The notes below the pieces were generated by a model. That model saw only the letters and a list, made by a program, of their open reading frames with translations, made no database searches and had not been told where the DNA came from. Position numbers and translations under genes: made by a program. A stretch of DNA of 64,000 nt from contig NZ_KB905694.1 of NCBI RefSeq assembly GCF_000380985.1, positions 186,001 to 250,000 on the forward strand. Direction: 5' to 3'. Of the stretch, positions 5,389 to 22,802 are shown one piece after another. Numbering within the stretch: the first letter of the stretch is position 1; each line of letters starts with the position of its first letter. This stretch comes from Proteiniphilum acetatigenes DSM 18083. GTDB taxonomy: Bacteria > Bacteroidota > Bacteroidia > Bacteroidales > Dysgonomonadaceae.

Positions 5389-5423
5389 ATTTTGGCAAAG
5401 TAAGATCAAAATTGTATATTTAA

Positions 5424-5491
5424 ATAATATAAGATGTGCCTCGGAAAAACTCAAGCAAGCTTGGTTTTTCACTCGGTTTTCATTATATTTG
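5424..5491 (+). repeat. Dispersed promoter-carrying repeat, copy A
   Basis: 68-bp element closely matching the one before tpl (38531-38598): GATGYGCCTC core, then CTCAAGCAAGCTTGGTTTTTC, then CTTG-N20-TATATTTG (5460-5463 and 5484-5491), which is a full -33/-7 promoter. It sits 35 bp upstream of the gene at 5526 and almost certainly drives it. Related copies are at 35310-35474 and 42747-42820. Confidence 0.8.
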
Positions 5492-5525
5492 ACTTTTCAT
5501 CATTGTACGTTCAAACAGTATAAAT

Positions 5526-6422: not shown

Positions 6423-6559
6423 GAGAGTCGACTCCATTGTCACCCTCAACTCCTCAGGTCCTGCCGTCGCCAATAAAGTAGCAACAGCTATGTTAAGTCC
6501 GGTGAGAAAGATCAAAAGCAGATATCAGGTAGAGGTTATTCCGGTATTTTTTACTTATT

Positions 6560-7156
6560 TTGCATTTCTATTACTACGGGAGTTCTACCAAATTGTTGAA
6601 AAGAGAGAAAGATATTGCTTCAATTTATACCCTGTATGTGGACAATCTGTTCACGTATGGATGCTATTTAGGCTTTACAAGAGAGGTAGTAAAAGATGCC
6701 ATTCACGATATTTTTATAAAGATTACTACTGACAGTGATAAGTTGAACGACATATCCAATATCAAGTTCTACCTTTTCAGGTCACTGAAGAACAGGCTTC
6801 TGGATATCCATAAAAATCAAAGGGAGCATATTGGACTGGAAAATATAGATCTTCTGCGGGAAATACCTTTCAATATAGAAGTGAATGTGGAAGACCTGAT
6901 GATCGAAGAAGAGGAACAAATGCAGATAAAAACAGGAATTGAACAGATGCTCAATTCTCTCACCGACCGGCAACGTGAAATTATTTACCTCCGCTATGTA
7001 CAGGAATACGATTATGATCAAATTGCCGAATTACTCCACATTTCGGTACATGGATGTCGTAAATTGGTATCTAAAGCTATCCTCAGTCTCCGGGAGAAAT
7101 TCGGTATTTTTTTTCTTTTGGGTTATCAATCCTATTTTCTTCTTATCCTTAAATAA
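6560..7156 (+). CDS. ECF-type RNA polymerase sigma-70 factor
   Basis: Extracytoplasmic-function sigma factor of the Bacteroidota PUL type. Region 2 spans about residues 20-80 (YVDNLFTYGCYLGF, DAIHDIFIKI, YLFRSLKNRLLD). Region 4 spans about 130-180 (SLTDRQREIIYLRYVQEYDYDQIAELL, a helix-turn-helix). There is no ATG between the upstream in-frame stop (6530) and the conserved region, so the start must be TTG at 6560 or TTG at 6593/6596. A TTATTTTG box overlapping 6560 would favour the later start. It should pair with the FecR gene at 9132, but a convergent PNGase-like gene lies between them, its stop only 6 bp away. Confidence 0.9.
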   Translation: MHFYYYGSSTKLLKREKDIASIYTLYVDNLFTYGCYLGFTREVVKDAIHDIFIKITTDSDKLNDISNIKFYLFRSLKNRLLDIHKNQREHIGLENIDLLREIPFNIEVNVEDLMIEEEEQMQIKTGIEQMLNSLTDRQREIIYLRYVQEYDYDQIAELLHISVHGCRKLVSKAILSLREKFGIFFLLGYQSYFLLILK

Positions 7157-7162
7157 TTATAC

Positions 7163-8911
7163 CTACAATCCGTCAGCCGGATCATCGTCTGCATCCCCGA
7201 CCAACACACCGGAAATACACCAGTAGCTAAGACTGCTACCGGCAGGATCGCCCACGGGAATAGCAATTTTAAGCTGATGTTCTCCTGCTTTGAGCTCACC
7301 CACATGGATGTAAACCGGATAACTCACGGTTCCGGGACACCACCCCGATCTGCTTAAATCGGATGAAGAGAGTCCGTTCGCAAAATTGCCCGATGCCGGA
7401 TTGAGTTCACGATAGCTACCACAATCCTCTCTCCATGGAGTGTAGGCAATAATTCGTTCCCCGTTCAGAAAGATCTCGTTCAGTTTCGGATTGAATTCGT
7501 CTCCACCGCCCCAACCGCCATGTCCGGTGGATATATAGCGGATATAACCATCCTTCAGGTCCTTATCGATCTTAAAATTAACTGTAAGTGAGTCGTTCCG
7601 GAACATATTTTCGGGATACGCCTGACCGGCCATCTCCATAATATTGACCGTCGCAAAAAGCGGATAAACCTCTTTTGCCTTGTTCAACGATTGCGGGTAA
7701 TATTTGATATTGAGTGTAATACTATGCCCGTCATGTGAATAATTACCGATCCATGCTCCAATCCATACTTCACCTTTAAGAATAGAAGCATAATCGGTAA
7801 CCTCCTGCCTGAACACAACAGAATCAGGCCAATTATAATCCGCCACTTCAATATGGTTGTACCCGCGTACCCCAAACGAAGTGTAGAAGCGCATTAATTC
7901 AAGCGGAGGAAGATAATCGTCGGTCACCAGCATCCCTTCATATGGTTTACCATCTTTGTCATGATAAATGGGGAGGCTCTCCTTACCGTGAAGGAGTCCA
8001 TCGAAGAAGGATCGCTCCCTTTCCGTAGGAATGACAAAAATCGATCCTGTACGGTCATAAGCGTCTCCTTCCGAGTAGTGTGATAATTCGGTAAAGATAG
8101 AATATCCCCTATTCTCTTCCGGAAGTTTTACCTTTCTCATCAGGATCGATCCATTGGCAAACCGGAGGACTTTCTCTTCATCCAACTGTGTCACTTGAGG
8201 AATATCCCTGAAGTATATGCTTTCGTGATCAAACACATTGACCGCGATCACCCGGCTTTGCTGGATTTTGTAGTTAAAAGCCGGTGCTTTCAACTCAACT
8301 CCCCGCAGCTTAGGCTCCAACACTGTCTCTTCGTTGAGCAATTCCACCTTACTTGCCACTGCCGTAGGATTACCATTCCTTACTACTTTCAATACTATCC
8401 CTTCGGGGATTGCTACTCCCGGCTGTACGGAGCCATACATACCCAGTTCGGTAGTGTACCAGATTTCGAGAGTATTGGAATTGATGATAGTTTTTGCTTT
8501 CTTGCATTTATAACCGGCAATCACCTCCGTCTCATCTAAAAACTCAAGCCCCTCGTTGATGGTAAACGAACGGATGGTATAAATAGATTCTTCACCTTTC
8601 AGGAGCGCTGTTTTGATCTCTCTTCCTGTGTTGTAATCGAGATAGGTAGCCTGCACCGGCGCATCGGTGTCCCTTCTGTGGGAGACAGTGGTAATTTTTG
8701 CCCAGTTTCCTGATATTTCCATCACGGTTTTGGCTCCGGAAGTTCCTTGCCTTGATCCTATAGGATAAGTAACCCTAATGGTTTTATACTCTCCTGTACC
8801 ATCAAAACTATCTCTCCTATCTGTTGACAATTGCATTTTCGACGTTTCTGCGGCAAGTACCGCCACAATAGTAAGGAATCCTGTCAAAAATGTTGATATA
8901 GTTCGTTTCAT
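7163..8911 (-). CDS. GLPGLI-like domain fused to a PNGase F-type N-glycosidase
   Basis: 582-residue secreted protein (signal peptide about 1-21). Residues about 25-200 resemble the GLPGLI family (IAGYKCKKAKTI, then IWYTTELGMYG and a PEGIVLKV strand). Residues about 215-575 match peptide-N4-(N-acetyl-glucosaminyl)asparagine amidase F, which cuts N-glycans from Asn. Key positions line up with Elizabethkingia PNGase F: YDR (Asp286 for Asp60), EVW (Glu381, region of Glu118), GDEF (Glu472 for Glu206), plus DCGS and SGWCPG (522-527). The gene lies on the minus strand between the sigma and FecR genes with its own -7 box. It would supply glycan release for the neighbouring mannosidase locus. PNGase assignment is strong; the GLPGLI part is moderate. 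Confidence 0.87.
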   Translation of the reverse strand: MKRTISTFLTGFLTIVAVLAAETSKMQLSTDRRDSFDGTGEYKTIRVTYPIGSRQGTSGAKTVMEISGNWAKITTVSHRRDTDAPVQATYLDYNTGREIKTALLKGEESIYTIRSFTINEGLEFLDETEVIAGYKCKKAKTIINSNTLEIWYTTELGMYGSVQPGVAIPEGIVLKVVRNGNPTAVASKVELLNEETVLEPKLRGVELKAPAFNYKIQQSRVIAVNVFDHESIYFRDIPQVTQLDEEKVLRFANGSILMRKVKLPEENRGYSIFTELSHYSEGDAYDRTGSIFVIPTERERSFFDGLLHGKESLPIYHDKDGKPYEGMLVTDDYLPPLELMRFYTSFGVRGYNHIEVADYNWPDSVVFRQEVTDYASILKGEVWIGAWIGNYSHDGHSITLNIKYYPQSLNKAKEVYPLFATVNIMEMAGQAYPENMFRNDSLTVNFKIDKDLKDGYIRYISTGHGGWGGGDEFNPKLNEIFLNGERIIAYTPWREDCGSYRELNPASGNFANGLSSSDLSRSGWCPGTVSYPVYIHVGELKAGEHQLKIAIPVGDPAGSSLSYWCISGVLVGDADDDPADGL

Positions 8912-8952
8912 ACGATTTTATTTAGACTATCATACTCCTCTCATACGATGGG

Positions 8953-8960
8953 CAAATTTA
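8953..8960 (-). promoter_or_regulatory. Putative -7 box for the PNGase F-like gene
   Basis: Minus-strand TAAATTTG fits TAnnTTTG, about 42 bp before the start codon at 8911. Confidence 0.45.
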
Positions 8961-9131
8961 GAGAAAGTTTTGCCGTCATTCCATCCATTTCACTATTTTC
9001 CCGGCACAAAAATGTTAAAATTATAAGATTTTATCAGAAGAAGGGGATAAACAAAAATAAGAGTCGTCTTGATAATATATAACAAAGGCTTCTCTTCAAA
9101 GGTCCTTTTAGCATAAAAAATAAATACCCGA

Positions 9132-10322
9132 ATGAAGACGGATCATATTTATACCAGTTATACGCATTTTTTAAAAGATAACAAATTCATCCAATGGCAG
9201 CTAATGCCTGATGAAAAACTGAATAGTTATTGGGAAAAATTCTTTATGCAACACCCGGAATTGCAGAGGGAGTCGCAACAAGCATTCACATTCCTGAAAA
9301 AGGAGGGATTGAACAAAAGTGACTTAAATAAAAATGAGCACACTGAATTACTTGAAAGAATTCAGAGAACCATCCGGCAAAAGAAGAAGATACAACAACG
9401 CAGGATCTTTTGGTATGCATCCACCGTTGCTGCGATGGCATTGATCTCCATTGGAATCAAACTATTTTCTCCTTCGGCGGAATCCGTTACTACTATTTCA
9501 GACAAAGAACTTATTATAGGAGAACTACTGAATAACGAAGATATTCAACTCATTACAAGCGGAGAAGCCATTTTATTCCAGGATGATGTAGAGGTTACTC
9601 TTGGTGAAGAAGGTACTGCTCAAATTGTACAAGCAAATAATGAGTCCAGTAAAATCCAGATCGCCCGGGATAAATTTAATTCACTGATCGTTCCTTACGG
9701 TAAGCGCTCCATACTCACTCTTGCCGACGGAAGCAAAGTTTGGCTTAATTCGGGTTCGGCACTCGATTTTCCGGCACAATTCAATGGCAATAAGCGGGAA
9801 ATACGCCTCACCTCGGGAGAGATGTATGTTGAAGTAGCCCATGATACAGAAAAACCGTTTTACGTGCAGACTGGCAATTTCAATGTAAAGGTATATGGAA
9901 CAAAGTTCAGTATCTCAAATTATGCCGGTTCACCTCAATCGGTAGTACTGGTGGAAGGGAGTGTCAGTTTGCAATTATCCGACAAGGAAGAGTTGTTTCT
10001 AACACCGAATGAGCAAGCAGTCTATTCAGGAGGCAGCACATTCGACACACAAAAAGTCGATGTAAATCAATTTATCAGTTGGAAAGACGGTTATTTTTCC
10101 TTCGACAAGACGCCAATGACTGAAGTGTTGCAACAGATCGGAAGATATTACAATCTTTCATTCAATTTTGGCCAGAATGTGCATTTACAGAACCGTACCT
10201 GCACCGGGAAAATATATCTGTCCGAAAATATGGACAACGTGATGAGCACTATTGCACTGCTTTCATCCACCCGATATGAAAAAGAAAACAATCGTATATA
10301 TATTACCAATGAACTCGATTAA
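9132..10322 (+). CDS. FecR-family anti-sigma factor
   Basis: 396-residue inner-membrane anti-sigma factor. The cytoplasmic N-terminal part (1-90) would bind the ECF sigma factor, and a single membrane helix lies at about 92-112 (WYASTVAAMALISIGIKLF). The periplasmic FecR domain follows (about 185-290, with YGKRSILTLADGSKVWLNSGS and VEVAHDTEKPFYVQT). A C-terminal DUF4974 segment (about 320-392, FDKTPMTEVLQQIGRYYNLS) is the region that contacts the SusC STN domain in this class. It sits directly before a SusC gene with an STN domain. Its sigma partner is presumably the gene at 6560. Confidence 0.93.
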   Translation: MKTDHIYTSYTHFLKDNKFIQWQLMPDEKLNSYWEKFFMQHPELQRESQQAFTFLKKEGLNKSDLNKNEHTELLERIQRTIRQKKKIQQRRIFWYASTVAAMALISIGIKLFSPSAESVTTISDKELIIGELLNNEDIQLITSGEAILFQDDVEVTLGEEGTAQIVQANNESSKIQIARDKFNSLIVPYGKRSILTLADGSKVWLNSGSALDFPAQFNGNKREIRLTSGEMYVEVAHDTEKPFYVQTGNFNVKVYGTKFSISNYAGSPQSVVLVEGSVSLQLSDKEELFLTPNEQAVYSGGSTFDTQKVDVNQFISWKDGYFSFDKTPMTEVLQQIGRYYNLSFNFGQNVHLQNRTCTGKIYLSENMDNVMSTIALLSSTRYEKENNRIYITNELD

Positions 10323-10361
10323 ACCGAAATGCCTATGGACAGAGAAAAATAGAACCAGCAA

Positions 10362-10398
10362 TAAAAAAAGTCGAACGATACCGCAAATATCGTCCGAC
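10362..10398 (-). terminator. Minus-strand Rho-independent terminator between fecR and susC
   Basis: Arms 10370-10380 and 10388-10398 form an 11-bp stem with a 7-nt loop. Read on the minus strand the single non-Watson-Crick position is a G-U pair and the stem is followed by seven T (10363-10369). On the plus strand the same position is an A-C mismatch and there is no T-tract. The structure therefore favours minus-strand termination. Confidence 0.65.
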
Positions 10399-10436
10399 AA
10401 AATTGAATTTAATTACCCTGATTATTAATAATTAAA
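10362..10436 (-). ncRNA. Candidate antisense RNA opposite the susC leader
   Basis: A minus-strand -7 box TATTTTTG lies at 10443-10450, overlapping the A of the susC start codon. A minus-strand terminator follows 45 bp on. Together they would give an RNA of about 75 nt complementary to the susC 5' leader. Cis-encoded antisense RNAs at this spot are known for Bacteroides PULs (DonS type). The existence of this one is inferred from promoter and terminator signals only. Confidence 0.4.
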
Positions 10437-10449
10437 ATCATACAAAAAT

Positions 10450-13400
10450 ATGAATAAATACTTTATTGGAGAGAAGAAAAATCCCAATATTTTTAATTAC
10501 GTACCAAAAATCATGAGAACAACATTATTCTTACTATTTTGTAGCATCTTGTTTTCTCAAGCAGCGACAAGTTATTCACAAGTATTCACTTTTAATCTGA
10601 AATCAACATCTATAAAAGAAGCATGCAAAGAGATTGAAAGAAATAGTGATTACATCTTCGTTTTTTCAGATAATAGCGAAAAAATGATGGATAAAAGAAT
10701 AAATGTGAATGTCAACTCGAAAAATGTAGAAGAAATATTGGATACGATTTTATCCGAAACCGGACTTACGTACAGGATATTGGATAAACAAATCGTGGTA
10801 TACGAATCGAAAGAAGGAATTCCCCTGAAGAACGAGGAACGAGCCGTTTCTCATAGCTTGCAACAACAGACCGGAAAACAAATCACTGGAAAAGTAATAG
10901 ATACACAAGGTGAATCCATTATCGGTGCCAACATTGTAGAGGTGGGCACTGCCAACGGTACTGTTACCGATATCGATGGTAATTTTTCTTTAACTGTGGC
11001 GAATGATGCCTCCATTAGAATCACCTATATCGGATATCTTGAACAAACAATTCCTACCTCCGGAAGTAACCAGTTCAATATCATCTTACAGGAAGATACA
11101 AAAGCACTGGACGAAGTGATCGTCATCGGTTATGGTACCCGTCAACGCAGAAGTATTACCGGAGCAGTAGACCAGGTCAACTCCAGCATGTTTGAAGACA
11201 GGCCGGTGTCGAATGCGGTACAGGCGTTGCAAGGAGCATCAGCCAACCTGATTATTCAGCAAAGGAATATGAACCCTAATGATAACAATCTGAGTATCAA
11301 TATCAGGGGTGTAAGTACGATGGGGAATAATGATCCCCTGATCGTTATTGACGGGTTGATCTCCACGGCAAACACGCTGAACAATATAAATCAGAACGAC
11401 ATCGAAAATGTCTCGGTGTTGAAAGATGCGGGTAGTGCCGCCATCTACGGATCACGCTCCGCCAATGGAGTCATCCTGGTCACCACCAAGCAGGGATCCA
11501 AATCGCAAAAACCGACGGTACGTCTTAATGCCCTTGTCGGATACCAGGATCCTCAGATACTTTTTCAGCCGGTAGAAGGGTGGCAAAACGCCATGTACCG
11601 TAATCAAGCCAATATAAATTCAGGAAGTGCACCACTGTTCACGCCCGCACAGATACGCGACTTGTATGAACACCGGAACGAAGAGTATTGGTTTTTTAAC
11701 GAGATTATGCAGAAGGGACTTCAGCAAAATTATAACCTCAATGTATCCGGTGGAAGTGAAAACACCACTTATATGGTATCTGCAGGCTATCTGAATCAGG
11801 AAAGTAATTTTGTAGGAGGCTTCGGGTTAGAACGTTACAACTTCCGTACGAACCTGACCACCGAGTACAACCGGTTCAAGTTGACCGCCTTAACGGCATA
11901 CAACCGCCGTCAGGAACGGACTATAGCCGGAGGTACCGGTAATGTGATCATCAACTCATCACGTATCCCTCCTTACTATTACTATAAATTTCAACAAGAC
12001 GGGAAATGGTTGATTAACGATATTATCGGTGACGACAATACAATGGCTAAGTTGAAAGACGGTGGGTATGAGAACAAAGCTGAAGATAATTTTATCGGAA
12101 GCCTGAACCTCGATTACAACATTCTCGACGGGCTGACTGCCAAAGCGTTGGTGGGACTGGATCTTACCCAGCATCACCGTTTCAGGAGAGATATACAGGT
12201 ACCTCTCTATTCGGCAACAAATCTGGAAACCCCAAGCGTCAATATCAATCCGAACAGGCTTACGGAAGATTACAATAACAAACGATACACGCTGAGTACG
12301 CAGTTTTTATTGGATTACAGCCGTACCTTCAATAATGTACATCAAGTATCGGGGTTGTTAGGGACATCCAATGAGTCCTACACTTACAAGGCAAGCCGGC
12401 TCGCATTTATCAAAACCGATCCCGACCTGGGATTGCCCACCACCGATGAGTCGGAACCCGATCCGGGTAATTTCACTTCCAACGGTACTGAAGGCAGCAA
12501 TCCTGCCACGGATCAAACCAGTATCACGTCGATCTTCGGACGTGTGGGATATAGCTATATGGATAAATATTATGCAGATATCTCTTTCCGGTACGATGGT
12601 TCGTCGAAGTTTGCAAAGGCCAACAGATGGGGTTTTTTCCCTTCCTTCTCCGGTGCATGGAGAATCTCAGAAGAAGGTTTTATGGGAGATTACCGGAATA
12701 ACGTAGGTGACCTGAAATTGAGAACTTCCTACGGGGTACTGGGTAACCAAAACGTAGCCAATTATTCCTATCAGACGGTCTACCAAATGTATACCAACAG
12801 TTACGTGTTTAATAATCAAGCGGTACCGGGTACCGGATTCACCTATGGAAATCCCGATCTGACATGGGAAAAATCGGGAAACTTCAATATTGGGGTGGAT
12901 GCCGGTTTCTTCAATAACGATCTCTATGTCACTCTCGATTACTTTAACAAGAGAACATGGGATATTTTGCTGGCTCCCGAGGTTTCTTCCGTATTCGGAA
13001 CTACCGCGGCAAGTGAAAATGCCGGAGAAATGAGAAACAGGGGATGGGAGGCCACCGTGAATTACCGGTTAAGATCGGGTGATTTCAATCACAATTTCAA
13101 TCTGAATATCTCCGACTCCAGGAATAAGGTAACCGACTTTGGCGGAAAGGAACGAATTGATCAAAACGATCAGATGTACAAATTAATCCGTGAAGGAGAG
13201 GCACTGGGTTCTTACTACGGATATAGGACAGACGGCTTTTTCCAGAGCGCTGAAGAGATCGCAGACAGTGCTTTACCAATCGGTGCCACTGTACAGCCGG
13301 GAGATGTAAAATATGTGGATCAAAACAGGGATGGAGTCATCGATGAAAAAGACCGTGTTGTACTTGGTAATGCCTTCCCCCGATATACCTTCGGTTTTAC

Positions 13401-13908
13401 TTATGACCTGCAATGGAAAGATTTCGATTTCAGCATCATGCTACAGGGAGTGGGTAAAAGGGATATGTATCTCCGCGGAGAGTTGATAGAGCCATTTCAC
13501 TCCAACTATTCCTATGCCATCTATCGTCATCAGTTGGATTTCTGGACACCTACCAATCCTGATGCAAGATGGCCCCGATTGATCGCACCCAGTTCCTCTT
13601 CAAGTCAGAATAACTGGGGTAGAGCCGGTACGGATATTTATCTGTTGGACGGATCCTACATCCGTATAAAAAATATCCAGTTAGGATACACTTTACCTCA
13701 GTTATTTACCAATAAATTTGGCATTGAGAAAATGCGTATAAGTGTTAACGCACAGAATCCGCTCACTCTCACGAAAAACTCTTTTATTGATCCAGAAACA
13801 TCCGAGTTTGGCAATAACATGGGAGGTATCGCAGGTGTAGGAGCCAACAGTGGGCGCAATTATCCCACACTGGTTTATTATGGATTTGGACTGGACATTG
13901 TATTTTAA
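10450..13908 (+). CDS. SusC/RagA-type TonB-linked outer-membrane receptor with STN domain
   Basis: 1152-residue glycan importer. After the signal peptide (about 20-44) comes an STN domain (about 48-125, with KSTSIKEACKEIERNSDYIF), the signalling module that acts on FecR. Next are a carboxypeptidase-like domain (about 140-215, GESIIGANIVEVGTANGTVT), a TonB box (LDEVIVIGYG), a plug (NIRGVSTMGNNDPLIVIDG) and a barrel ending in DIVF. It is followed 11 bp later by its SusD partner. The STN domain and the sigma/FecR genes upstream indicate substrate-induced control by trans-envelope signalling. Confidence 0.96.
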   Translation: MNKYFIGEKKNPNIFNYVPKIMRTTLFLLFCSILFSQAATSYSQVFTFNLKSTSIKEACKEIERNSDYIFVFSDNSEKMMDKRINVNVNSKNVEEILDTILSETGLTYRILDKQIVVYESKEGIPLKNEERAVSHSLQQQTGKQITGKVIDTQGESIIGANIVEVGTANGTVTDIDGNFSLTVANDASIRITYIGYLEQTIPTSGSNQFNIILQEDTKALDEVIVIGYGTRQRRSITGAVDQVNSSMFEDRPVSNAVQALQGASANLIIQQRNMNPNDNNLSINIRGVSTMGNNDPLIVIDGLISTANTLNNINQNDIENVSVLKDAGSAAIYGSRSANGVILVTTKQGSKSQKPTVRLNALVGYQDPQILFQPVEGWQNAMYRNQANINSGSAPLFTPAQIRDLYEHRNEEYWFFNEIMQKGLQQNYNLNVSGGSENTTYMVSAGYLNQESNFVGGFGLERYNFRTNLTTEYNRFKLTALTAYNRRQERTIAGGTGNVIINSSRIPPYYYYKFQQDGKWLINDIIGDDNTMAKLKDGGYENKAEDNFIGSLNLDYNILDGLTAKALVGLDLTQHHRFRRDIQVPLYSATNLETPSVNINPNRLTEDYNNKRYTLSTQFLLDYSRTFNNVHQVSGLLGTSNESYTYKASRLAFIKTDPDLGLPTTDESEPDPGNFTSNGTEGSNPATDQTSITSIFGRVGYSYMDKYYADISFRYDGSSKFAKANRWGFFPSFSGAWRISEEGFMGDYRNNVGDLKLRTSYGVLGNQNVANYSYQTVYQMYTNSYVFNNQAVPGTGFTYGNPDLTWEKSGNFNIGVDAGFFNNDLYVTLDYFNKRTWDILLAPEVSSVFGTTAASENAGEMRNRGWEATVNYRLRSGDFNHNFNLNISDSRNKVTDFGGKERIDQNDQMYKLIREGEALGSYYGYRTDGFFQSAEEIADSALPIGATVQPGDVKYVDQNRDGVIDEKDRVVLGNAFPRYTFGFTYDLQWKDFDFSIMLQGVGKRDMYLRGELIEPFHSNYSYAIYRHQLDFWTPTNPDARWPRLIAPSSSSSQNNWGRAGTDIYLLDGSYIRIKNIQLGYTLPQLFTNKFGIEKMRISVNAQNPLTLTKNSFIDPETSEFGNNMGGIAGVGANSGRNYPTLVYYGFGLDIVF

Positions 13909-13919
13909 TATTTTACGCT

Positions 13920-15548
13920 ATGAATATGAAAACAAAAATCATACAATATATAACAATTATCATAGTTACAGTTGTCGCTTTCTCTTCGTGTAACGACCTC
14001 GATCTTGCGCCCACCAATAAATTCACGGATGCCAATTACTGGACCTCCGTAGAAAAGGCTGATGCGGTACTCAATATGGCCTATAGCCAGATGTTCAATG
14101 CCGGCTATTTCTTTGCCAACGAACGCCTGACGGATAATATATACGAAGGCAGGGGTAATACAGATGAAAAGATCATTACTTCGGGACAAGCCGACGCTGC
14201 CCTCGGCCGGTTTGCCAATGAGTGGAAAAACTGCTACGAAGGCATTAAAACCTGTCATATTTTTCTTGAAAATATCGATTTAGTGCCAAATATGGATGCA
14301 GCTTTAAAGGAGAGAATGATTGCTGAAACCCGTTTTATCCGGGCTTCCCTATTCTTCCGGCTCACCAACCATTACGGCGATGTACCCTTGTTCGATTACA
14401 ACATCAATCTTCAGGAAGCCAATACCATCAGCCGTTCTCCTAAAGCGGAGGTGATCACTTTCGTGAGAAATGAATTGAATGCTATCGTCAATACCTTACC
14501 AAAGAGCGGAGAATATGCCGATAAAGACAAGGGCAGGATCACTCAGGGAGCGGTAATGACCCTACTGGCACGCACCTATCTCTACGAAAATGACTGGGCA
14601 AATGTAGCCTCTATCACCGAAGATATTATCAACGGAGAGTACGGCCGGTACGAACTTTTTCCCAGCTATGAAGGACTTTTCCTGCCGGAGAACGAACTGA
14701 ACCAAGAGGTGATTCTCGACATGGGTTACACTCTTACCCTGAGGACTTGGAGTGAGATGTACGATGCCATCCCCATCAGCGTGGGCGGACGTATCAATGC
14801 TGCAGCGCCTACACAGGAATTGGTGAATGATTATATTATGACGAATGGTAAGGCAATCCATGAGGCCGGATCAGGCTATAATGAAGATAACCCTTACGTA
14901 AACAGAGATCCGCGATTCGGTTATTCTATCGTTTATCATGGTTATCAGTGGAAAAAAGGGGATGGTTCTGTATCGACTATTTATATCAGACCCGGTTCTT
15001 CCGATGGAGTTCCAGGCGCTTCCGATCTGGATGAATACGCCGGCCCGGGACAAAACTCCACCGCCACCGGATATTATATCAGAAAATACTTCGATCCTAC
15101 TGCTCCGGAAGGAATAGCTGCCGGACTGAACCTGATATTAATGCGTTATGCTGACATCCTGTTGATGTATGCAGAGGCAAAAAACGAATTGGGAGAAATG
15201 AACCAGACGGTATGGGATCAAACCATCCGTGCTCTTCGCGAACGCGCCGGCTTCACCGATGCCGGAGCATTAAACTATCCGGCCAATGGCGACCTACGGG
15301 AAATTATCCGTCGTGAACGTCGCACCGAACTCTTCCATGAAGGGCTACGTTTATTCGATATCCGTCGCTGGGGTACGATTGAAACAGTGATGAACGCCAC
15401 TCCTACCGGAGCTAAATTTGCCGGGGGCAACACGCAATACATCCGATTAGACCAGAGAAGGTTTAATAAAGACAGGGACTACCTGTTTGCTGTTCCCCAG
15501 TCACAACGTGATATCAATCCTAATCTGACGCAAAATCCCGGATATTAA
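13920..15548 (+). CDS. SusD/RagB-type glycan-binding lipoprotein
   Basis: 542-residue surface lipoprotein; the lipobox cysteine is at residue 24 (VAFSSCND). It forms the lid over the SusC barrel and binds the incoming oligosaccharide. SusD hallmarks include AETRFIRASLFFRLTNHYGDVPL (TPR-like region), LNLILMRYADILLMYAEAKNE, and the C-terminal IIRRERRTELFHEGLRLFDIRRWG. The ATG at 13920 follows the SusC stop by 11 bp; a second Met (13926) would also fit. It is cotranscribed with susC and the SusE-like genes. Confidence 0.96.
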   Translation: MNMKTKIIQYITIIIVTVVAFSSCNDLDLAPTNKFTDANYWTSVEKADAVLNMAYSQMFNAGYFFANERLTDNIYEGRGNTDEKIITSGQADAALGRFANEWKNCYEGIKTCHIFLENIDLVPNMDAALKERMIAETRFIRASLFFRLTNHYGDVPLFDYNINLQEANTISRSPKAEVITFVRNELNAIVNTLPKSGEYADKDKGRITQGAVMTLLARTYLYENDWANVASITEDIINGEYGRYELFPSYEGLFLPENELNQEVILDMGYTLTLRTWSEMYDAIPISVGGRINAAAPTQELVNDYIMTNGKAIHEAGSGYNEDNPYVNRDPRFGYSIVYHGYQWKKGDGSVSTIYIRPGSSDGVPGASDLDEYAGPGQNSTATGYYIRKYFDPTAPEGIAAGLNLILMRYADILLMYAEAKNELGEMNQTVWDQTIRALRERAGFTDAGALNYPANGDLREIIRRERRTELFHEGLRLFDIRRWGTIETVMNATPTGAKFAGGNTQYIRLDQRRFNKDRDYLFAVPQSQRDINPNLTQNPGY

Positions 15549-15574
15549 TATCATAATTTTAAACTACAGATAAA

Positions 15575-16723
15575 ATGAAAAATATATTGATAAGACTTAT
15601 AACGCTATCGTTCCTTATCCCTCTGTTCATTGCATGCGACAGCGAGGGCGTAGTAAGGGATTACGGCGTTACATCCGTACAAAAATTGTATAATCCGGAT
15701 AATGGAAAAGCAGTTGTATTGCATGCGAAAGGCTCACTCACCTTTGAGTGGGAGCCGGCGCTGGCTGAAGATGGTGGTAACCCGCTCTATGAGGTTGCGT
15801 TCGACAAAGAAGATGGAGACTTTTCAGCACCGGTAGCCATAATTACAGCCGACAATAACGGAGGTAGTACCCGGGCTACACTTACCCACAAGCAGATAAA
15901 CAAGATTGCCGCTGAGGCAGGTGTGGAATCGGCAGCGCAAGGAACACTTAAATGGACTGTCTTTTCCTCTAAAGGATACGAACCTGTGAAGGCACAGGAA
16001 GAGCGTACACTCACAGTGACCCGTCTGGCAGGTTTTGCCGATATCCCCGAACAGGTTTACATTACCGGAGAAGCCACAGAGGGCGGTGCTGATCTTTCCA
16101 ACGCACTTATCATGAGAGAAAGTGAGGAAGAAGAGGGGCTGTTTGAGATGTATACCTTCTTAAAAGCAGATACTCCTTTCCATTTCACCAATGGCACATC
16201 GGAGGAATCGGCAATCTATTCTACTGCCAATGGGATACTCGTAGAAGGTGGTACTACCAGCCTTGCCAAAGAGGGAGTCTATCGCATCATACTCGACTTC
16301 ACTACCGGTTCTGCCACTTACACCCTGATTGAAAGAATCGGCTTCTTCTTTTCACCCTCGAACGCCATGTTGTTTGAATTGCCCTACGTAGGCAACGGAG
16401 TTTTCCGGGCTGAAGCGCAAACGGTTACCTTCAAACAAGAGAGTTGGGGAAGGGATGAGCGATACAAATTCAGAATGTATGTCCGCGAGGATGCCGGTGA
16501 AGGTGAGATAGTAGAGATGGAATGGGGTACAAAGAATCCCACTGACTCCCGTCCTGAACCCAATAGCCCGGATTCTTATTACCATATTGCCCTGGTGAAT
16601 CCGTCTCAATGGGATAACAAATGGAAACTGGCGGGTGATTTTGATGGAGTACCGGCCAATTACACGATCTATTTGCAGGCCAATATCCCTTATTATACCC
16701 ATTCCATTGAACTAAGTGAATAA
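15575..16723 (+). CDS. SusE-like surface glycan-binding lipoprotein
   Basis: 382-residue lipoprotein (Cys21 in PLFIACDSEG). A SusE-type N-terminal domain (about 30-150) contains LTFEWEPAL, GNPLYEVAFDKEDGDFSAPV and TADNNGG, and is followed by a FADIPEQVYITGEAT segment and a C-terminal carbohydrate-binding-type region (about 270-382). These proteins tether substrate at the surface near SusCD. It is clearly paralogous to the next gene (shared DGDFS-P, TADNNG, K-TV-SSKG, ITRLAGF-DIP and ITGEAT positions). It lies 26 bp after susD in the same operon. Confidence 0.85.
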   Translation: MKNILIRLITLSFLIPLFIACDSEGVVRDYGVTSVQKLYNPDNGKAVVLHAKGSLTFEWEPALAEDGGNPLYEVAFDKEDGDFSAPVAIITADNNGGSTRATLTHKQINKIAAEAGVESAAQGTLKWTVFSSKGYEPVKAQEERTLTVTRLAGFADIPEQVYITGEATEGGADLSNALIMRESEEEEGLFEMYTFLKADTPFHFTNGTSEESAIYSTANGILVEGGTTSLAKEGVYRIILDFTTGSATYTLIERIGFFFSPSNAMLFELPYVGNGVFRAEAQTVTFKQESWGRDERYKFRMYVREDAGEGEIVEMEWGTKNPTDSRPEPNSPDSYYHIALVNPSQWDNKWKLAGDFDGVPANYTIYLQANIPYYTHSIELSE

Positions 16724-16749
16724 TAGTATAATACACCTTAAAATATAAA

Positions 16750-17877
16750 ATGATGTACAAATCAGATATAACGATCGCGTTGATCATCCTTTTTGCGGCT
16801 CTCTTCGCTTCTTGTAGCGACAATATGGGAACGCCCGATGATCGGCTGACAGAGGTAACCTCTCTGATTGAACCGATGAATGCCAGGGAGGTGGTTTTGG
16901 AGCCCTCTGTCTCTGCTTCACTCTATTTCGAATGGGATTATATCAACCACGCCGAGGCAGGCGTGGCGACTTACCGGATCGCTTTCGACAGTGCGGATGG
17001 CGATTTCTCCAGTCCTATTTATATCATTACGGCGGATAATAACGGTTTGTCAAACCATGTCACTGTCTCTCACAGAGATTTGAACAAGATCGCCGACAAG
17101 GCAGGCATCAACCCTTCCGCCACCGGTACGATCAAATGGACCGTACTTTCTTCGAAAGGAACCAAAACGATAAAATCGTCACAGGAGCACAGTCTTGTCA
17201 TTACCCGCTTAGCAGGTTTTGAGGATATCCCCATGGAGCTTTTTATTACCGGCGAGGCCACCGAAAGAGGTGCTGACATCGCTAATGCCATCGCGATGAA
17301 AAATCTTGCCGAGGGAGAATTTGAGATCTACACCCGGCTGACGCAAGGTCAACCATTCAAATTCGTCAGCGGCAGATCAGGCGAATACACAACATACTCC
17401 TTAACAGAGGACAACATTGTGGTAGACGGAACTTCGGAGGTACCTGTTACCGGCGTGTATAAATTCTACCTCAACTTTGAAATCGGTTCCTACTCGATGA
17501 AGCATATCACCAAAGTGAGCCTCTTCCTTAATTGGGCTCAACGATATATTGAGTTACCCTACATCGGTTCCGGCGTATGGGGTGTGACCGATTACGAGAT
17601 CAGCGGGCTCTCTGGCAACGACAATACCGACGACCGTTACAAATTCCGTATGGAGAGCAGCGAGGGAGAGACCGAGTGGAGAGCAGCCGATAATGACAGC
17701 AAACCTACCGGAGCTCCCGAATATTACTATATGGTTGAAAGGACAAATGTGACACAGTGGACAGACGGGCAGATATGGAAATCACCCGCCACCGACGGAT
17801 GGAGCGGAAAAAGATATGATGTCACCTTCTCGCTTAACCCGGATGGACCCTATACCCATAATTTAGTTATTAAATAA
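16750..17877 (+). CDS. SusE-like surface lipoprotein, paralogue of the preceding gene
   Basis: 375-residue lipoprotein (Cys22 in ALFASCSDN) with the same layout as its upstream neighbour: SusE domain (FEWDYINHAEAGVATYRIAF, SADGDFSSP, TADNNG), an AGFEDIPMELFITGEAT linker, and a C-terminal domain with YIELPYIGSGVWGV. The two genes look like a tandem duplication that has since diverged, so they may hold different parts of the glycan. Two ATG codons are adjacent at the start. A stable hairpin follows in the gap to the GH76 gene. Confidence 0.83.
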   Translation: MMYKSDITIALIILFAALFASCSDNMGTPDDRLTEVTSLIEPMNAREVVLEPSVSASLYFEWDYINHAEAGVATYRIAFDSADGDFSSPIYIITADNNGLSNHVTVSHRDLNKIADKAGINPSATGTIKWTVLSSKGTKTIKSSQEHSLVITRLAGFEDIPMELFITGEATERGADIANAIAMKNLAEGEFEIYTRLTQGQPFKFVSGRSGEYTTYSLTEDNIVVDGTSEVPVTGVYKFYLNFEIGSYSMKHITKVSLFLNWAQRYIELPYIGSGVWGVTDYEISGLSGNDNTDDRYKFRMESSEGETEWRAADNDSKPTGAPEYYYMVERTNVTQWTDGQIWKSPATDGWSGKRYDVTFSLNPDGPYTHNLVIK

Positions 17878-17900
17878 GAATCATTAAAAAAATATCCAGT

Positions 17901-17930
17901 CCAAAGGGAGTTTCTTACAACTCTCTTTGG
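17901..17930 (+). other. Intercistronic hairpin between the SusE-like and GH76 genes
   Basis: Arms 17901-17912 (CCAAAGGGAGTT) and 17919-17930 (AACTCTCTTTGG) form a 12-bp stem with one G-U pair and a 6-nt loop. No T-tract follows on the plus strand, so it is more likely an mRNA stability or partial-attenuation element that lowers expression of the downstream enzymes than a full terminator. Confidence 0.5.
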
Positions 17931-17966
17931 GCAAGGGATACAACTTTTGAATAAAAATCATCTCTT

Positions 17967-19103
17967 ATGAAGAAAAAATATCTCTTTTTAATTATGCTGA
18001 TAATCCCTCTCTGGTGGTCTTGCGGGAAAGAGGATATACCGGCTAATGGAGAGGACGAAGAGGAAGAAACAATCGATTGGAACGTTGCAGCTAATGCGAG
18101 CAGCATGGCTCTGATCAATCAATTCTGGAACAGTGGAGGAAACTATTTCAATACCGACAATAGCGGTAACACTACCTTTCAGTATTGGCCCAATGCACAT
18201 GCACTCGATGTATTGATTGATGCCTATGAACGTACCAGTAATACCGAATACAGCACTTACTTCGATCAATGGTTCCAGGGGGTGAAAGTACAGAATGGCA
18301 ATACATGGAATAACGATTTTTACGACGATATGGAATGGAACGCACTGGCCTTACTCCGGGCATATAAGGCCACCAGCGATGCCAAATACAAGGATGCGGC
18401 ACTGGAGTTATGGGGGTATATCAAAGAAGGTTGGAACGATAATGCCGGCGGCGGGATTACCTGGAAAAAGGGCATGGAATACAGTAAAAACGCCTGCTCT
18501 AATGGTCCTGCAGCTATCCTTGCTGCTCGCCTCTATCAGGAATTTGGCAATGAAGAAGATAGAGAGTGGGCCATCAGAATCTACGGCTGGCTCAAGTCGA
18601 CCTTGGTGAACACCAACACGGGCGCAGTCTGGGATAATATCAACTCCAATACCGGAGAGATTAACAAAGAGTGGGTATTCACTTACAATCAAGGCACCTA
18701 TATCGGCGCGGCAGTTGAGTTACATAAGATATTCAACGAGAAATCCTATCTCAATGATGCAGTCAAAGCGGCCGATTATACTATCGGCAGTCTGGTGGAA
18801 AACTCTGTCCTCAAAAGTGAAGGTACTGGTGACGGAGGGCTTTTCAAAGGCATCTTTATCCGCTACTTCACCGATTTGATCCAACAGGAACGACTCGACG
18901 CACCTATCCAGAGAAGGTATCTTCAGTTTATGAAGTTGAATGCCGAGACCCTATGGGAACAGGGAACCACACAACCGGCTGTATTATTCGGACCTAACTG
19001 GCGTCAGAAACCGGGAACTTCCACGGGGCTGACCGAGCAACTCAGTGGCTGCATGTTGATTGAAGCCGCCGCCCTGTTAGAGAAAGAAGAATTATTCAAT
19101 TAA
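17967..19103 (+). CDS. Glycoside hydrolase family 76 (endo-alpha-1,6-mannanase type)
   Basis: 378-residue lipoprotein (Cys19 in PLWWSCGKE, followed by an acidic GEDEEEE stretch typical of surface export). The family GH76 (alpha/alpha)6 barrel begins near residue 40. The catalytic Asp pair is D120-D121 in FYDDMEWNALALL, the GH76 signature. Other family positions include ACSNGPAAILAARLY and WVFTYNQGTYIGAAVEL. GH76 enzymes cut alpha-1,6-linked mannan backbones of fungi or related chains. It is placed in the locus after the SusE-like genes and before an esterase and a GH92. Confidence 0.92.
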   Translation: MKKKYLFLIMLIIPLWWSCGKEDIPANGEDEEEETIDWNVAANASSMALINQFWNSGGNYFNTDNSGNTTFQYWPNAHALDVLIDAYERTSNTEYSTYFDQWFQGVKVQNGNTWNNDFYDDMEWNALALLRAYKATSDAKYKDAALELWGYIKEGWNDNAGGGITWKKGMEYSKNACSNGPAAILAARLYQEFGNEEDREWAIRIYGWLKSTLVNTNTGAVWDNINSNTGEINKEWVFTYNQGTYIGAAVELHKIFNEKSYLNDAVKAADYTIGSLVENSVLKSEGTGDGGLFKGIFIRYFTDLIQQERLDAPIQRRYLQFMKLNAETLWEQGTTQPAVLFGPNWRQKPGTSTGLTEQLSGCMLIEAAALLEKEELFN

Positions 19104-19109
19104 GAATGA

Positions 19110-19268
19110 TTATCTGTAATATCTCTTGGTACAATATGGTGTACAGGAACGGAGAAACAGGAAAACTTTAAAGAGGAGCGTGGCAAAATCGGCATTACCT
19201 GTAAAATAGACAATGGCACCAATCACTATTGGCTTGAAACTCGAAGTAAGTATATCGCTACTAATTAA
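19110..19268 (+). other. Stretch with weak coding character in the gap between GH76 and the esterase; possible gene remnant
   Basis: The 240-bp gap holds an open frame without ATG. Its last part (from 19131, reading TIWCTGTEKQENFKEERGK ... HYWLETRSKY) looks more protein-like than the AT-rich gaps elsewhere and ends at TAA 19266-19268. I cannot assign it to a family. It may be the tail of a lost gene, or chance. Confidence 0.2.
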
Positions 19269-19282
19269 ATAATAAAAAACAG

Positions 19283-19290
19283 TATATTTG
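19283..19290 (+). promoter_or_regulatory. Putative -7 box for the CE15-like esterase gene
   Basis: TATATTTG fits TAnnTTTG and lies 54 bp before the ATG at 19344. It suggests the esterase and GH92 genes can be transcribed apart from the susCD operon. Confidence 0.45.
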
Positions 19291-19343
19291 TAAAATGCGA
19301 GGTAGAAAATCTATGATCGGGTTCAACCATAAAAATACAATAG

Positions 19344-20618
19344 ATGATAACAACGAAAAGAATAAAAGAATTTACAGGTTTAATTGTATGGCTTTTTACC
19401 GCTTCCCTCATGTATTCCCAGCAAAACGTGAATTACGATGAGTCGAAAATCCCTTCGTATGTGCTACCCGAGCTTTTGCAATGTGAGAACGGAAAGGTGG
19501 TCTCGACCATAGAGCAGTGGGAAACGCAGAGAAGGCCGGAACTGCTGGAGTTATTCGCTTCACAGGTGTATGGATGTAAGCCTGAGGGAAAGATCGACGT
19601 TACCTACGAAATACTGACGGGGAACCCTGGTGCGTTGGGCGGTAAAGCAACCGGCAAGCAGGTGAAATTTACTTTTTCCAATGGGAAGAAAAAAACAGAA
19701 GCTATCCTTCTGTTGTACATTCCCAATAAACCGGCAGGCAAAGTGCCTGTTTTTGTCGGCTACAATTTCAAAGGAAATCACAGTACTACTTCAGACACAA
19801 CGGTTCTTTACTCTCCCGTTTTCCATCTGGTAAAAGAACCGGATCATCCGGATTGGGAAAGAGGGAATCAAACAAGCCGATGGAGTTACGATAAAATTAT
19901 CGACCGGGGATATGCCGTGGCGACAATGTGCTATCACGATATTTATCCCGATAAACCGGAACTAAGAGATCACAGTATTGTCTCTCTTTTTCCGGAATAT
20001 GATCCTGAAAATATCGTGGCCGACGAATGGCAGGCTATCGGCGCCTGGGCCTGGGGATCGAGCCGGATCATCGATTTTCTGGAAACCCAGGAAAGGATAG
20101 ACAGTGACAAGATCGCCATCATGGGACATTCCCGGCAAGGAAAGGCTGCGCTTTGGGCCGGCGCCCAGGACAAGCGTTTTCGGATGGTGATATCCAATGA
20201 TTCGGGTTGCGGTGGCGCGGCACTCTTCCGAAGGGAATTCGGGGAAACCATCGACATTATCAATAAAAACTTCCCACACTGGTTCTGTAAGAACTTTCAT
20301 CAGTATAATAACCGGGAAGAAATATTGCCGGTAGACCAGCATCAGCTTATTGCCTTGATAGCGCCCAGAAAAGTGTATGTGGCGAGCGCCGAAGAAGATC
20401 TTTGGGCAGACCCCAAAGGTGAATTCTTATCCGCCTATCATGCAGGCCCGGTATATCTTCTCTACGGATTGACAGCCATCGATTCTGACAAGATGCCGCA
20501 ATTGCATAAACCGATCATGGGAGACATAGGTTACCATATAAGAGCAGGCAAACATGATGTGACGGAATATGATTGGGAGTGTTATCTGGATTTTGCAGAT
20601 AAGCATTTCAAGAATTAA
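19344..20618 (+). CDS. CE15-like glucuronoyl methylesterase (alpha/beta hydrolase)
   Basis: 424-residue secreted esterase (signal peptide about 1-25, MYSQQ). The family CE15 hallmarks are GHSRQGKAALWAGAQDKRF (nucleophile Ser263), NDSGCGGAALFRREFGE (286-300), FPHWFCKNFHQY (310-321), LPVDQHQLIALIAPR, and a C-terminal YHIRAGKHDVTEYDW with His404 as the likely catalytic His. The Ser-to-His spacing (141) fits the family. CE15 enzymes cleave esters of glucuronic acid, usually lignin-xylan links. Finding one beside GH76/GH92 enzymes is unusual and suggests an esterified uronic acid or another ester in the target. Confidence 0.88.
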   Translation: MITTKRIKEFTGLIVWLFTASLMYSQQNVNYDESKIPSYVLPELLQCENGKVVSTIEQWETQRRPELLELFASQVYGCKPEGKIDVTYEILTGNPGALGGKATGKQVKFTFSNGKKKTEAILLLYIPNKPAGKVPVFVGYNFKGNHSTTSDTTVLYSPVFHLVKEPDHPDWERGNQTSRWSYDKIIDRGYAVATMCYHDIYPDKPELRDHSIVSLFPEYDPENIVADEWQAIGAWAWGSSRIIDFLETQERIDSDKIAIMGHSRQGKAALWAGAQDKRFRMVISNDSGCGGAALFRREFGETIDIINKNFPHWFCKNFHQYNNREEILPVDQHQLIALIAPRKVYVASAEEDLWADPKGEFLSAYHAGPVYLLYGLTAIDSDKMPQLHKPIMGDIGYHIRAGKHDVTEYDWECYLDFADKHFKN

Positions 20619-20648
20619 TTTGTTTTTAATCAACTTCAACAACATAAG

Positions 20649-22802
20649 ATGAAACTAATTTCACCTATTATTCTCCTGTCGATCGTTTTATTCGGTTGCA
20701 CAAGTACAGCAGAGAAAAAACTCACTGACTATGTAAACCCTTTCTTAGGTACAGCCACCCTATGGGAACCTGAGGATCTGGGATATGTACGTACCTGGGA
20801 TGTACGTACCTGGGGGGCCGAAGTCTTTCCCGGAAGTTCCCTGCCCAACGCCATGGTGCAGTTGAGTCCCGTCACCCAGTTCCGGAGCGGAGCGGGATAT
20901 CAATACGAAGATACGGTGATCTACGGGTTCTCACATACAAATAAAGGGCACTGGAATCTGTTGCATATTCCCCTGTTACCTGTTACCGGAGAGATTGCTC
21001 CCGGAAATTATGCCTCCGCTTTCAGTCATGATAACGAATCGGCTCACCCGGGCTACTATCAGGTATTCCTCGAAACATATAGTATCGACGTGGAACTGAC
21101 TACTACCCTGCGTTGCGGATTTCACCGGTATACCTATCCCAAGGGGGAAGACAAAAAGCTGATTGCCGATATGACCCGTTCCAATAATCGGGTAAAGGAC
21201 TGGAGCATCCAAAAGGTAGATGAGTATACTTTTTCCGGTTTTCAGGATGCCGAAGGAAAAATGTATTTCTATGCAGTATCCAATTATCCGGTAGAGGATA
21301 TCCAACAGGTAAAAGACGATCAGCATGAAATTTCACTGGTAAATTTCGGGGAAAACCATCAGAAAGACCCGCTGGAACTCAAAATAGGATTCTCCTTTGT
21401 CAGCATCGAAAATGCAAAGATGAACTTAGAAGAGGAGATGCTGAATAAGAGTTTCGAACAGGTCCGTGAAGAGGCCGACAAAGAGTGGAACAGTTTGCTG
21501 TCGAAGATCAAAGTATCAGGTGGTAGCGAGCGTGAAAAAGGGATCTTCTACTCTACCCTCTATCGCTCATTCCTCTGGCCTGCCCTGCGCAGTGATATAA
21601 ACGGGGATTTCACGGATGAAACAGGAGAAATCGTCAATGAAGGATTCCGTTATTATACCAATCCATCGTTCTGGGACGACTATCGCAACAAGTTGGTATT
21701 ACTGGCTATGTTATCACCCGATGTGACCACTGATATCATCAAATCGATTACCGACAAAGGGGAGAAAAGAGGCGGTTATATGCCTACCTTCTTTCACGGT
21801 GACCACGCCTCGGTATTCGTGGCGGGCAGTTATCTTCGCGGCATCACCGATTTCGATCTGGAACGTGCTTACAGGCTGTTGCTGAAGAATGCTACTGTAC
21901 CCGGACGTGGTGGAAGGCCTTATCTGGACGAATACATCGAACGGGGCTGGATCGCGGAAAAAGATACCACCAACGTACCTACATGGGATGAATACAAAGC
22001 GGCTGTTACCAAAACAGTGGAGTATGCCTATGATGATTATGCAACCGCTTTAATTGCAAAAGAACTGGGTGATGAGGCGAATTATTCGTTACTGATGGAA
22101 CGTTCCAACAATTATAAGAACCTGTTCGACCCATCCACCGGGTTTTGGCGTGGAAAGATCGACAACGGAAACTGGATTGAGGACTTCGACCCCTACTATC
22201 CCTACTTCGCCTATATGTACCGGGAAGCGAATGCCTGGCAGTCACTCTTCTTCGCACCACACGATCCGGAAGGAATGATTGCATTGTACCCGTCTCATGA
22301 GGCAGTGAATCAGAAACTCGACTCTCTCTTTACCGAACCTTGGAGAGGGTATGAAGCGCATAATATGACCGGATTTATCGGTAATTACTGCCACGGTAAC
22401 CAACCCTCCCACTCGATACCCTATACCTATTATTTTATCGACAAACAGGAGAAAGCGCAATGTGTACTCGACAGTATCATGGATCGCTTTTACGATATGG
22501 GCGCCGAGAAACTGGCTTATGCGGGCATGGACGATGCGGGTGAGATGTCGGCATGGTATGTGTTCAACGCCATCGGGCTGTATACCTATTCACCGGCCGA
22601 TCCGGAATATATCATCTCTGTTCCCCTGTTCGACGAGGTAAAATTTTCTTTGGGTGAAAGCAGGGAATTTACCATCAGGAAGGAGGGCAACGGAAAGAAG
22701 ATCCGACAGATCAGATACGGTAACGAAACCATAGACGGATGGTTTATTCGACACGACCAGCTGGCACAGGGCAAAGAACTGATAATAACTACTACTGAAT
22801 AG
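20649..22802 (+). CDS. Glycoside hydrolase family 92 (exo-alpha-mannosidase)
   Basis: 717-residue lipoprotein (Cys17 in LFGCTST). Family GH92 markers: DYVNPFLGTATLW at the start, GAEVFPGSSLPNAMVQLSP (56-74), YGFSHTNKGHW, FWDDYRNK, GGYMPTFFHGDHASVF, EANAWQ (Glu526, likely general acid), and GMDDAGEMSAWYVFNAIGLY with the Ca2+/base Asp residues (628-629). Where alpha-1,2-mannosidases of the family carry GNEP, this protein has GNQP (583-586). Glu-to-Gln here is linked in the literature to mannose-1-phosphate-type activity, so the bond cut may not be a plain Man-Man link. It is 30 bp after the esterase gene. A 15-bp tandem duplication lies near the 5' end. Confidence 0.94.
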   Translation: MKLISPIILLSIVLFGCTSTAEKKLTDYVNPFLGTATLWEPEDLGYVRTWDVRTWGAEVFPGSSLPNAMVQLSPVTQFRSGAGYQYEDTVIYGFSHTNKGHWNLLHIPLLPVTGEIAPGNYASAFSHDNESAHPGYYQVFLETYSIDVELTTTLRCGFHRYTYPKGEDKKLIADMTRSNNRVKDWSIQKVDEYTFSGFQDAEGKMYFYAVSNYPVEDIQQVKDDQHEISLVNFGENHQKDPLELKIGFSFVSIENAKMNLEEEMLNKSFEQVREEADKEWNSLLSKIKVSGGSEREKGIFYSTLYRSFLWPALRSDINGDFTDETGEIVNEGFRYYTNPSFWDDYRNKLVLLAMLSPDVTTDIIKSITDKGEKRGGYMPTFFHGDHASVFVAGSYLRGITDFDLERAYRLLLKNATVPGRGGRPYLDEYIERGWIAEKDTTNVPTWDEYKAAVTKTVEYAYDDYATALIAKELGDEANYSLLMERSNNYKNLFDPSTGFWRGKIDNGNWIEDFDPYYPYFAYMYREANAWQSLFFAPHDPEGMIALYPSHEAVNQKLDSLFTEPWRGYEAHNMTGFIGNYCHGNQPSHSIPYTYYFIDKQEKAQCVLDSIMDRFYDMGAEKLAYAGMDDAGEMSAWYVFNAIGLYTYSPADPEYIISVPLFDEVKFSLGESREFTIRKEGNGKKIRQIRYGNETIDGWFIRHDQLAQGKELIITTTE
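20785..20814 (+). repeat. Perfect 15-bp tandem duplication inside the GH92 gene
   Basis: ATGTACGTACCTGGG occurs twice, head to tail. It keeps the frame and gives VRTWDVRTW in the protein at about residues 47-55, just before the conserved GAEVFPG. Confidence 0.9.

Follow-up and report, generated by a model that had tools for sequence, protein, structure and literature searches.

Candidate α-1,6-mannan utilization locus of Proteiniphilum acetatigenes, with a group 2 peptide:N-glycosidase as a probably facultative neighbour

We analysed a 64,000-nucleotide stretch of the Proteiniphilum acetatigenes DSM 18083 genome (contig NZ_KB905694.1, positions 186,001 to 250,000; hereafter the window), and in it a cluster of ten genes at 6560..22802. 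Protein families were called at curated Pfam cut-offs. Open reading frame (ORF) starts were set mechanically, and signal-peptide types were judged by inspection only. The ten proteins named in an initial annotation, made from the letters alone, all lie in open frames where it had placed them and score above the curated cut-off (Table 1). Its list of an extracytoplasmic function (ECF) sigma/FecR pair, SusC with STN domain, SusD, two SusE-like proteins, GH76, a CE15-like esterase and GH92 is thus borne out by Pfam and, where they could be placed, by catalytic residues. Adjacent SusC and SusD genes, further surface lipoproteins, carbohydrate-active enzymes and a linked regulator make this a SusCD-type polysaccharide utilization locus (PUL). 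The genome as a whole encodes, by Pfam, one peptide:N-glycosidase (PNGase), one full and one weak GH76, one GH125, ten GH92 and one GH18; none of the ten proteins of the cluster is a GH125, the single copy being on contig C1.

Table 1. Genes and sequence elements of the cluster, in window coordinates.
Feature	Coordinates	Strand	Basis and remarks
ECF sigma factor	6596..7156	+	Sigma70_r4_2 and ECF superfamily model; possible starts 6560, 6593, 6596
Group 2 (PNGase F-II-type) peptide:N-glycosidase	7163..8911	-	N-glycanase_N/C and PNGase_F-II_N; N-terminal bowl-like domain
TAnnTTTG promoter-like element, 49 nt before PNGase start	8953..8960	-	second copy 9052-9059
GGGGATA-N15-CGTCTT, candidate ECF promoter of FecR and SusC operon	9043..9070	+	pattern search
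FecR-type anti-sigma	9132..10322	+	Pfam FecR
Hairpin in SusC leader	10370..10398	+	scan listed minus-strand terminator-like
SusC with STN domain	10450..13908	+	Pfam receptor and STN models
SusD lipoprotein	13920..15548	+	Pfam; signal inspection
SusE-like lipoprotein 1	15575..16723	+	Pfam SusE; signal inspection
SusE-like lipoprotein 2	16750..17877	+	Pfam SusE; signal inspection
GH76 endo-alpha-1,6-mannanase candidate, lipoprotein	17967..19103	+	Pfam, D120-D121
TAnnTTTG element, 61 nt before CE15	19283..19290	+	weak
CE15-like esterase, type I-like signal peptide	19344..20618	+	Pfam GCE_fung, S263/H404
GH92 exo-alpha-mannosidase candidate, "GMDDAGEM" type, lipoprotein	20649..22802	+	Pfam, E526/D629

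The PNGase gene lies on the minus strand; it converges with the sigma gene, 6 nt away, and diverges from FecR across 220 nt. Gaps from SusC to GH76 are 11-89 nt, and 240 nt separate GH76 from CE15. On its face 6560-22802 is not a single operon, given the strand of the PNGase gene and the gap before CE15. The sigma frame may not start at the TTG at 6560: the start aligns with 6596 in 7 of 14 relatives, and the frame opens at the same TTG as 6560 in two (G053 and G088).

The comparison set comprised 101 genomes of the family, in which orthologous SusC/SusD pairs occur at 14 loci of 13 genomes, window included. Counted by hand over these loci, GH76 is present in 13, sigma and FecR in 12 each, GH92 in 10, a TonB receptor in 7, CE15 in 5, and a dehydrogenase and the PNGase in 4 each; some absences (G076, G040, G060b) are due to contig ends, and at the sole locus without GH76 the contig stops before the GH76 position. 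The relatives split the cluster into three pieces: an ECF sigma-FecR-SusC-SusD-two SusE-GH76 unit, a CE15-GH92 pair, and the opposite-strand PNGase. The "one locus" of the initial annotation is therefore correct as to the genes present, but its parts come apart in relatives, as strand and spacing in the window also indicate.

GH76 retains its catalytic pair D120/D121, and the best-matching structure, 6shd, is named "alpha-1,6-mannanase" and is, we assume, a Salegentibacter enzyme. The cluster thus has what marks a fungal alpha-mannan PUL, a GH76 with its Asp pair beside SusCD. The GH92 of the GMDDAGEM type was searched for in 395 genomes of the phylum, which gave 11 matches of that strength, the window's included, and 19 kb was read around each. 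The motif is present in all 10 other genomes. A GH76-family gene lies within about 10 kb in 6 of the 10 (the one in L225 is only distantly similar), SusC/SusD of this kind are near in 5, and GH125 was found in all three loci run through Pfam (L224, L227, L232). In the clade formed by the window GH92 and its relatives, MDD replaces NDD/DED, and YREAN replaces TEGN around the general acid. Alpha-1,6-mannan is a well supported candidate for the target of the SusCD-GH76 unit, because GH76 is kept in nearly all orthologues and this GH92 type recurs beside GH76; on this point the initial annotation is supported.

The PNGase behaves differently. A match was found in 47 of the 101 family genomes, and 18 were classed as group 2, 17 of them at about 65% identity or more (window counted) and one, in G094, at 38%. 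A split match (G096) and weak ones of 44-49 bits (G001, G002, G092) were left out of the group. Within the genus, 8 of 39 genomes have a group 2 PNGase, 10 a SusD orthologue (70% or more), and 4 both (Fisher p = 0.097). In seven of these eight one and the same TonB-receptor gene is found no more than about 3 kb from the PNGase gene; in the eighth (G061) the contig ends. Two genomes (G073, G065) carry the PNGase at that site with no SusD orthologue anywhere in the genome, and G022, of another genus, has it near a 2-hydroxyacid dehydrogenase gene without the PUL. Conversely, in G051, G083, G070 and G076 the same site holds the PUL without PNGase. Since each is found there without the other, PUL and PNGase are separable in both directions. 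A search of 6000-9400 for repeats that might betray a mobile element or duplication border gave only short, imperfect pairs.

In G053 the sigma-PNGase-FecR order is followed by a short SusC-like ORF (48% over 354 residues) and other SusC genes, in G088 by SusC/SusD of other types, and the GH92 and CE15 genes of these two genomes are about 20 kb off or on a different contig. At L045/L046 and L050/L051 sigma-PNGase-FecR is retained and other SusC genes follow (in L050 also SusD), apparently a swap of cargo behind a conserved regulator pair.

Upstream elements also set the PNGase apart. Of 17 group 2 PNGase genes, 13 have TAnnTTTG, a Bacteroidetes housekeeping promoter element, somewhere in their upstream stretch, and 11 have it at 43-51 nt; by its frequency in the window, chance would give 0.09 per 200 nt and strand. 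Control counts were 0/14 for FecR, 3/22 for SusC, 2/18 for GH76, 4/14 for sigma, 9/34 for GH92 and 7/12 for CE15. The FecR gene is preceded by another pattern, GGGKATA-N13..19-CGTYTT, found once in the window and in 12 of 15 FecR upstream regions (window included), a count that is partly by construction because the pattern was derived from those same regions; the misses in G051 and G081 differ at the last base. With the gap fixed, it has a single exact match in the 4.78 Mb genome, as has the reversed-pattern control. This element, itself a candidate, precedes none of the 17 PNGase genes. The PNGase thus looks to be transcribed independently of the mannan unit. It had been described as "built-in", a view that is not supported: it is in 4 of 14 loci, has its own promoter element, and in other genomes is present at the site without the mannan genes.

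The initial annotation had called it "PNGase F-like". The family is right, but the enzyme is of the group 2 or F-II type and not PNGase F proper: its nearest structures are 7zgn and 4r4x, the best being 7zgn, the group 2 PNGase of Bacteroides massiliensis (E 3.7e-154 over 515 aligned query residues). Read off the alignment to solved relatives, the catalytic D286/E472 are in place. The group 2 pair, a Gly replacing E118 and a compensating Glu, is present as G389/E426, which we equated with G380/E419 of EMTypeII by counting along the structure alignment and with PMC9522356. The bowl-like N-terminal domain is PF22252, as in group 2. The protein has a type I-like signal peptide and no lipobox, nor was a lipobox seen by inspection in 16 other group 2 PNGases of more than 500 residues. 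It is probably periplasmic, and with such a signal peptide release of glycans before uptake is unlikely. Crouch and colleagues likewise predicted Bacteroides PNGases to be periplasmic, conceding that the prediction may be wrong (PMC9522356). By the same account, the assayed group 2 PNGase prefers core alpha-1,3-fucosylated (plant-type) glycans and is negligible on high-mannose ribonuclease B (RNase B), although the glycans that it released from proteins of soya and papaya included high-mannose ones. A broad specificity that extends to high-mannose glycans is described for the Flavobacterium PNGaseL (PMC12381499). The window enzyme could be either plant-type-preferring or broad.

Across Bacteroidota, at least 518 group 2 PNGases were confirmed among at least 594 matched stretches, and neighbours were counted in the best 80 of the confirmed ones, with flanks of up to 10 kb. 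SusC models were found near 30, SusD near 18, GH92 near 4, GH76 near 2 and CE15 near none. The two GH76 compare with 0.65 expected on the assumption of two GH76 genes per 4.5 Mb genome (P(2 or more) = 0.14). In L147 (Phocaeicola paurosaccharolyticus) a Pfam-confirmed GH76 is 6 kb from the PNGase. The 80 include four loci of the Proteiniphilum type, L135, L136, L138 and the partial L145; in these a GH76, if present, would fall close to the end of the flank or past it.

Taken together, we consider it probable that the cluster is a Proteiniphilum-type PUL for fungal-type alpha-1,6-mannan, and that the PNGase is an independent, facultative neighbour outside the mannan regulon. We infer enzyme activities, localisation, induction and step order from what was observed directly, namely gene content, catalytic residues, orthologous loci, promoter-like elements and, by inspection, signal-peptide type. 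The lipoprotein GH76 would cleave accessible alpha-1,6-mannan backbone on the cell surface; the SusE-like proteins and SusD would retain the fragments, and SusC would bring them in. The STN domain of SusC would signal to FecR, so that sigma is released and FecR-SusC-SusD-SusE-SusE-GH76 is transcribed. The CE15-like esterase and the membrane-anchored GH92 would form a second unit, taking off an ester and terminal alpha-mannose, and degradation would be completed by enzymes encoded outside the cluster, a GH125 and nine further GH92. The group 2 PNGase would de-N-glycosylate imported glycopeptides generally.

Several observations, besides the partly circular FecR count and its reversed control, weigh against this reading. 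The PNGase gene sits exactly between sigma and FecR in four genomes (the window, G053, G061 and G088), which may mean integration, and in the genus PNGase and SusD orthologue are together in all four genomes that have both. In PUL genomes without the group 2 enzyme an N-glycanase may be available in trans: four of the nine (G051, G070, G083, G100) have a group 1 PNGase at a distance or on another contig, and G001, another of them, has a weak match. In L177 (Hymenobacter crusticola), at 8458-11581, a Pfam-confirmed GH76 is followed directly, after about 120 nt, by a group 2 PNGase in the same orientation, and in L232, at 2293-16126, GH92, GH125, a GMDDAGEM-type GH92, GH3 and a group 2 PNGase are within 14 kb. 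On the side of the CE15-GH92 pair, the TAnnTTTG elements before CE15 are at scattered distances (25-168 nt), weak evidence, and the CE15 protein is best described as an esterase-family member without assigned substrate. A loose link between PNGase and mannan thus appears to survive, in the four sigma-PNGase-FecR genomes, L177 and L232, and the two functions could cooperate.

The strongest rival takes this link further, into a single integrated system for N-linked fungal mannan: the PNGase would release mannan from mannoprotein, for digestion by GH76 and GH92. The position inside the sigma/FecR pair, the neighbourhoods of L177 and L232, and the fact that some enzymes of the wider PNGase family cut high-mannose glycans (PMC12381499) are what it would predict. 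We nevertheless think it unlikely: the PNGase is in just 4 of 14 orthologous loci, has its own promoter element and no FecR-type one, bears a signal peptide that makes release before uptake unlikely, and has an assayed group 2 counterpart negligible on RNase B (PMC9522356); and in the best 80 stretches a GH76 is near the PNGase in 2, against 0.65 expected (P = 0.14). A further reading, of similarly low probability, is that in one Proteiniphilum lineage the PNGase moved between sigma and anti-sigma and was recruited to the mannan system, mannosylated glycopeptides being imported by this SusCD, de-N-glycosylated in the periplasm, and then attacked by GH92 and GH125. If true, this uptake-first order would be the opposite of the GH18 route, and the same PNGase-mannan pairing may have evolved independently in Hymenobacter (L177) and in the L232 genome.

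The CE15 protein carries the serine motif of its family, GxSRxGK, and the catalytic His (S263/H404); its best-matching structure is 8q6s. As several solved structures of the family are named glucuronoyl esterases, and as several genomes have CE15 together with this type of GH92 or with the PUL, the target could instead be a non-fungal alpha-1,6-mannan with an esterified acidic sugar. We find this improbable, since CE15 is in only 5 of 14 PUL loci and its substrate is not readable from sequence.

The initial annotation also held the mannan to be "possibly phosphorylated". Work by Tiels in 2012 is said to have described a CcMan5-like Man-P-Man mannosidase without general acid, and in the HGNEPSHH motif the window GH92 (HGNQPSH) carries Q at a position that is E in many other GH92. 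This Q as a lost general acid is ruled out, as mapping on BT3130 makes E526, of YREANAWQ, the acid. The reference acid/base residues of BT3130, Glu535/Asp637 (PMC5930347), correspond to E526/D629 of the window enzyme, which thus does not show the loss of the acid described for CcMan5; all 33 members that span these positions, the window's included, keep both. BT2199 (2wvy), described as alpha-1,2-specific (PMC5930347), likewise has Q. The His-Glu pair of the alpha-1,2-mannosidase +1 subsite is absent from the window GH92, which has His-Asn from 571, as have 32 of the 33 members that cover it; two other GH92 of the same genome (L002, L004) do carry His-Glu. The +1 region has His-Asn as BT3130 does, and we assign no linkage. 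With BT3130 (6f8z) the best structure match at 383 bits, CcMan5 the weakest at 125, and acid and base retained throughout, a mannosyl-phosphate capped yeast mannan attacked by a CcMan5-like GH92 is very improbable, the Q notwithstanding.

The preferred reading, a PUL for alpha-1,6-mannan with a facultative PNGase beside it, has known counterparts for each half. The alpha-mannan loci of Bacteroides thetaiotaomicron and Salegentibacter sp. Hel_I_6 use SusC/SusD-type import. These fungal alpha-mannan PULs share GH76 and GH92 with the window; the Hel_I_6 locus has six GH92 and GH125, whereas the window cluster has one GH92 and no GH125 (PMC9213526, PMC10154615). Relative to them, as they are described there, the window adds the adjacent ECF sigma/FecR, the CE15-like esterase and the PNGase neighbour. 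In Bacteroides, group 2 PNGases adjoin SusC/D, GH92, GH29, GH3 and GH130, and the loci of B. massiliensis, B. vulgatus, B. helcogenes and B. sartorii resemble the window in having a PNGase with type I signal by GH92 and/or SusC/D. The accessible text mentions no GH76 or CE15 at those loci (PMC9522356); the window cluster has both, and its PNGase looks independently transcribed. The high-mannose N-glycan PUL of B. thetaiotaomicron also has an uptake system and GH92, but there the glycan is released before import by the GH18 BT3987 and not by a PNGase (PMC10154615). The contention that known N-glycan loci release by GH18 is right for BT3987, but overlooks the group 2 PNGases beside SusC/D and GH92 (PMC9522356). 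The exact gene set had been thought undescribed. Our searches of open-licence PMC literature indeed found no published locus with PNGase, GH76, CE15 and GH92, but the set is not conserved even in its own genus, and published cases exist both of GH76/GH92 alpha-mannan loci and of group 2 PNGases next to SusC/D and GH92.

Reading a glycan pathway from adjacency alone is risky: the eye-catching PNGase, with CE15, proved the least attached on comparison. What the comparison yields is a small conserved SusCD-GH76 unit and a GH92 type with unusual MDD, found repeatedly next to GH76 in other Bacteroidota; it also bears on whether periplasmic PNGases serve mannan PULs.

A hairpin similar to that of the SusC leader is found in 10 of 14 aligned leaders. 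In nine of these, aligned in register, 11 positions of the stem are paired in between 5 and 9 of the sequences, and two-sided changes are few; covariation support is modest, and an attenuator is possible. Generic scans gave 48 sigma-70-like sites against 35.2 in shuffles (standard deviation (sd) 6.3) and 26 terminator-like ones against 16.3 (sd 4.4), and were not used. An Rfam scan of the window gave no match inside the cluster and a single one elsewhere. A minus-strand SAM-II riboswitch at 56576-56635 stands where a methionine adenosyltransferase ORF, 55216-56631, starts. Two further systems of the SusC type are encoded in the window: a SusC-type receptor/SusD pair at 26509-31605, after the DUF5686 gene 23409-26063, and a FecR/SusC pair at 58548-63087.

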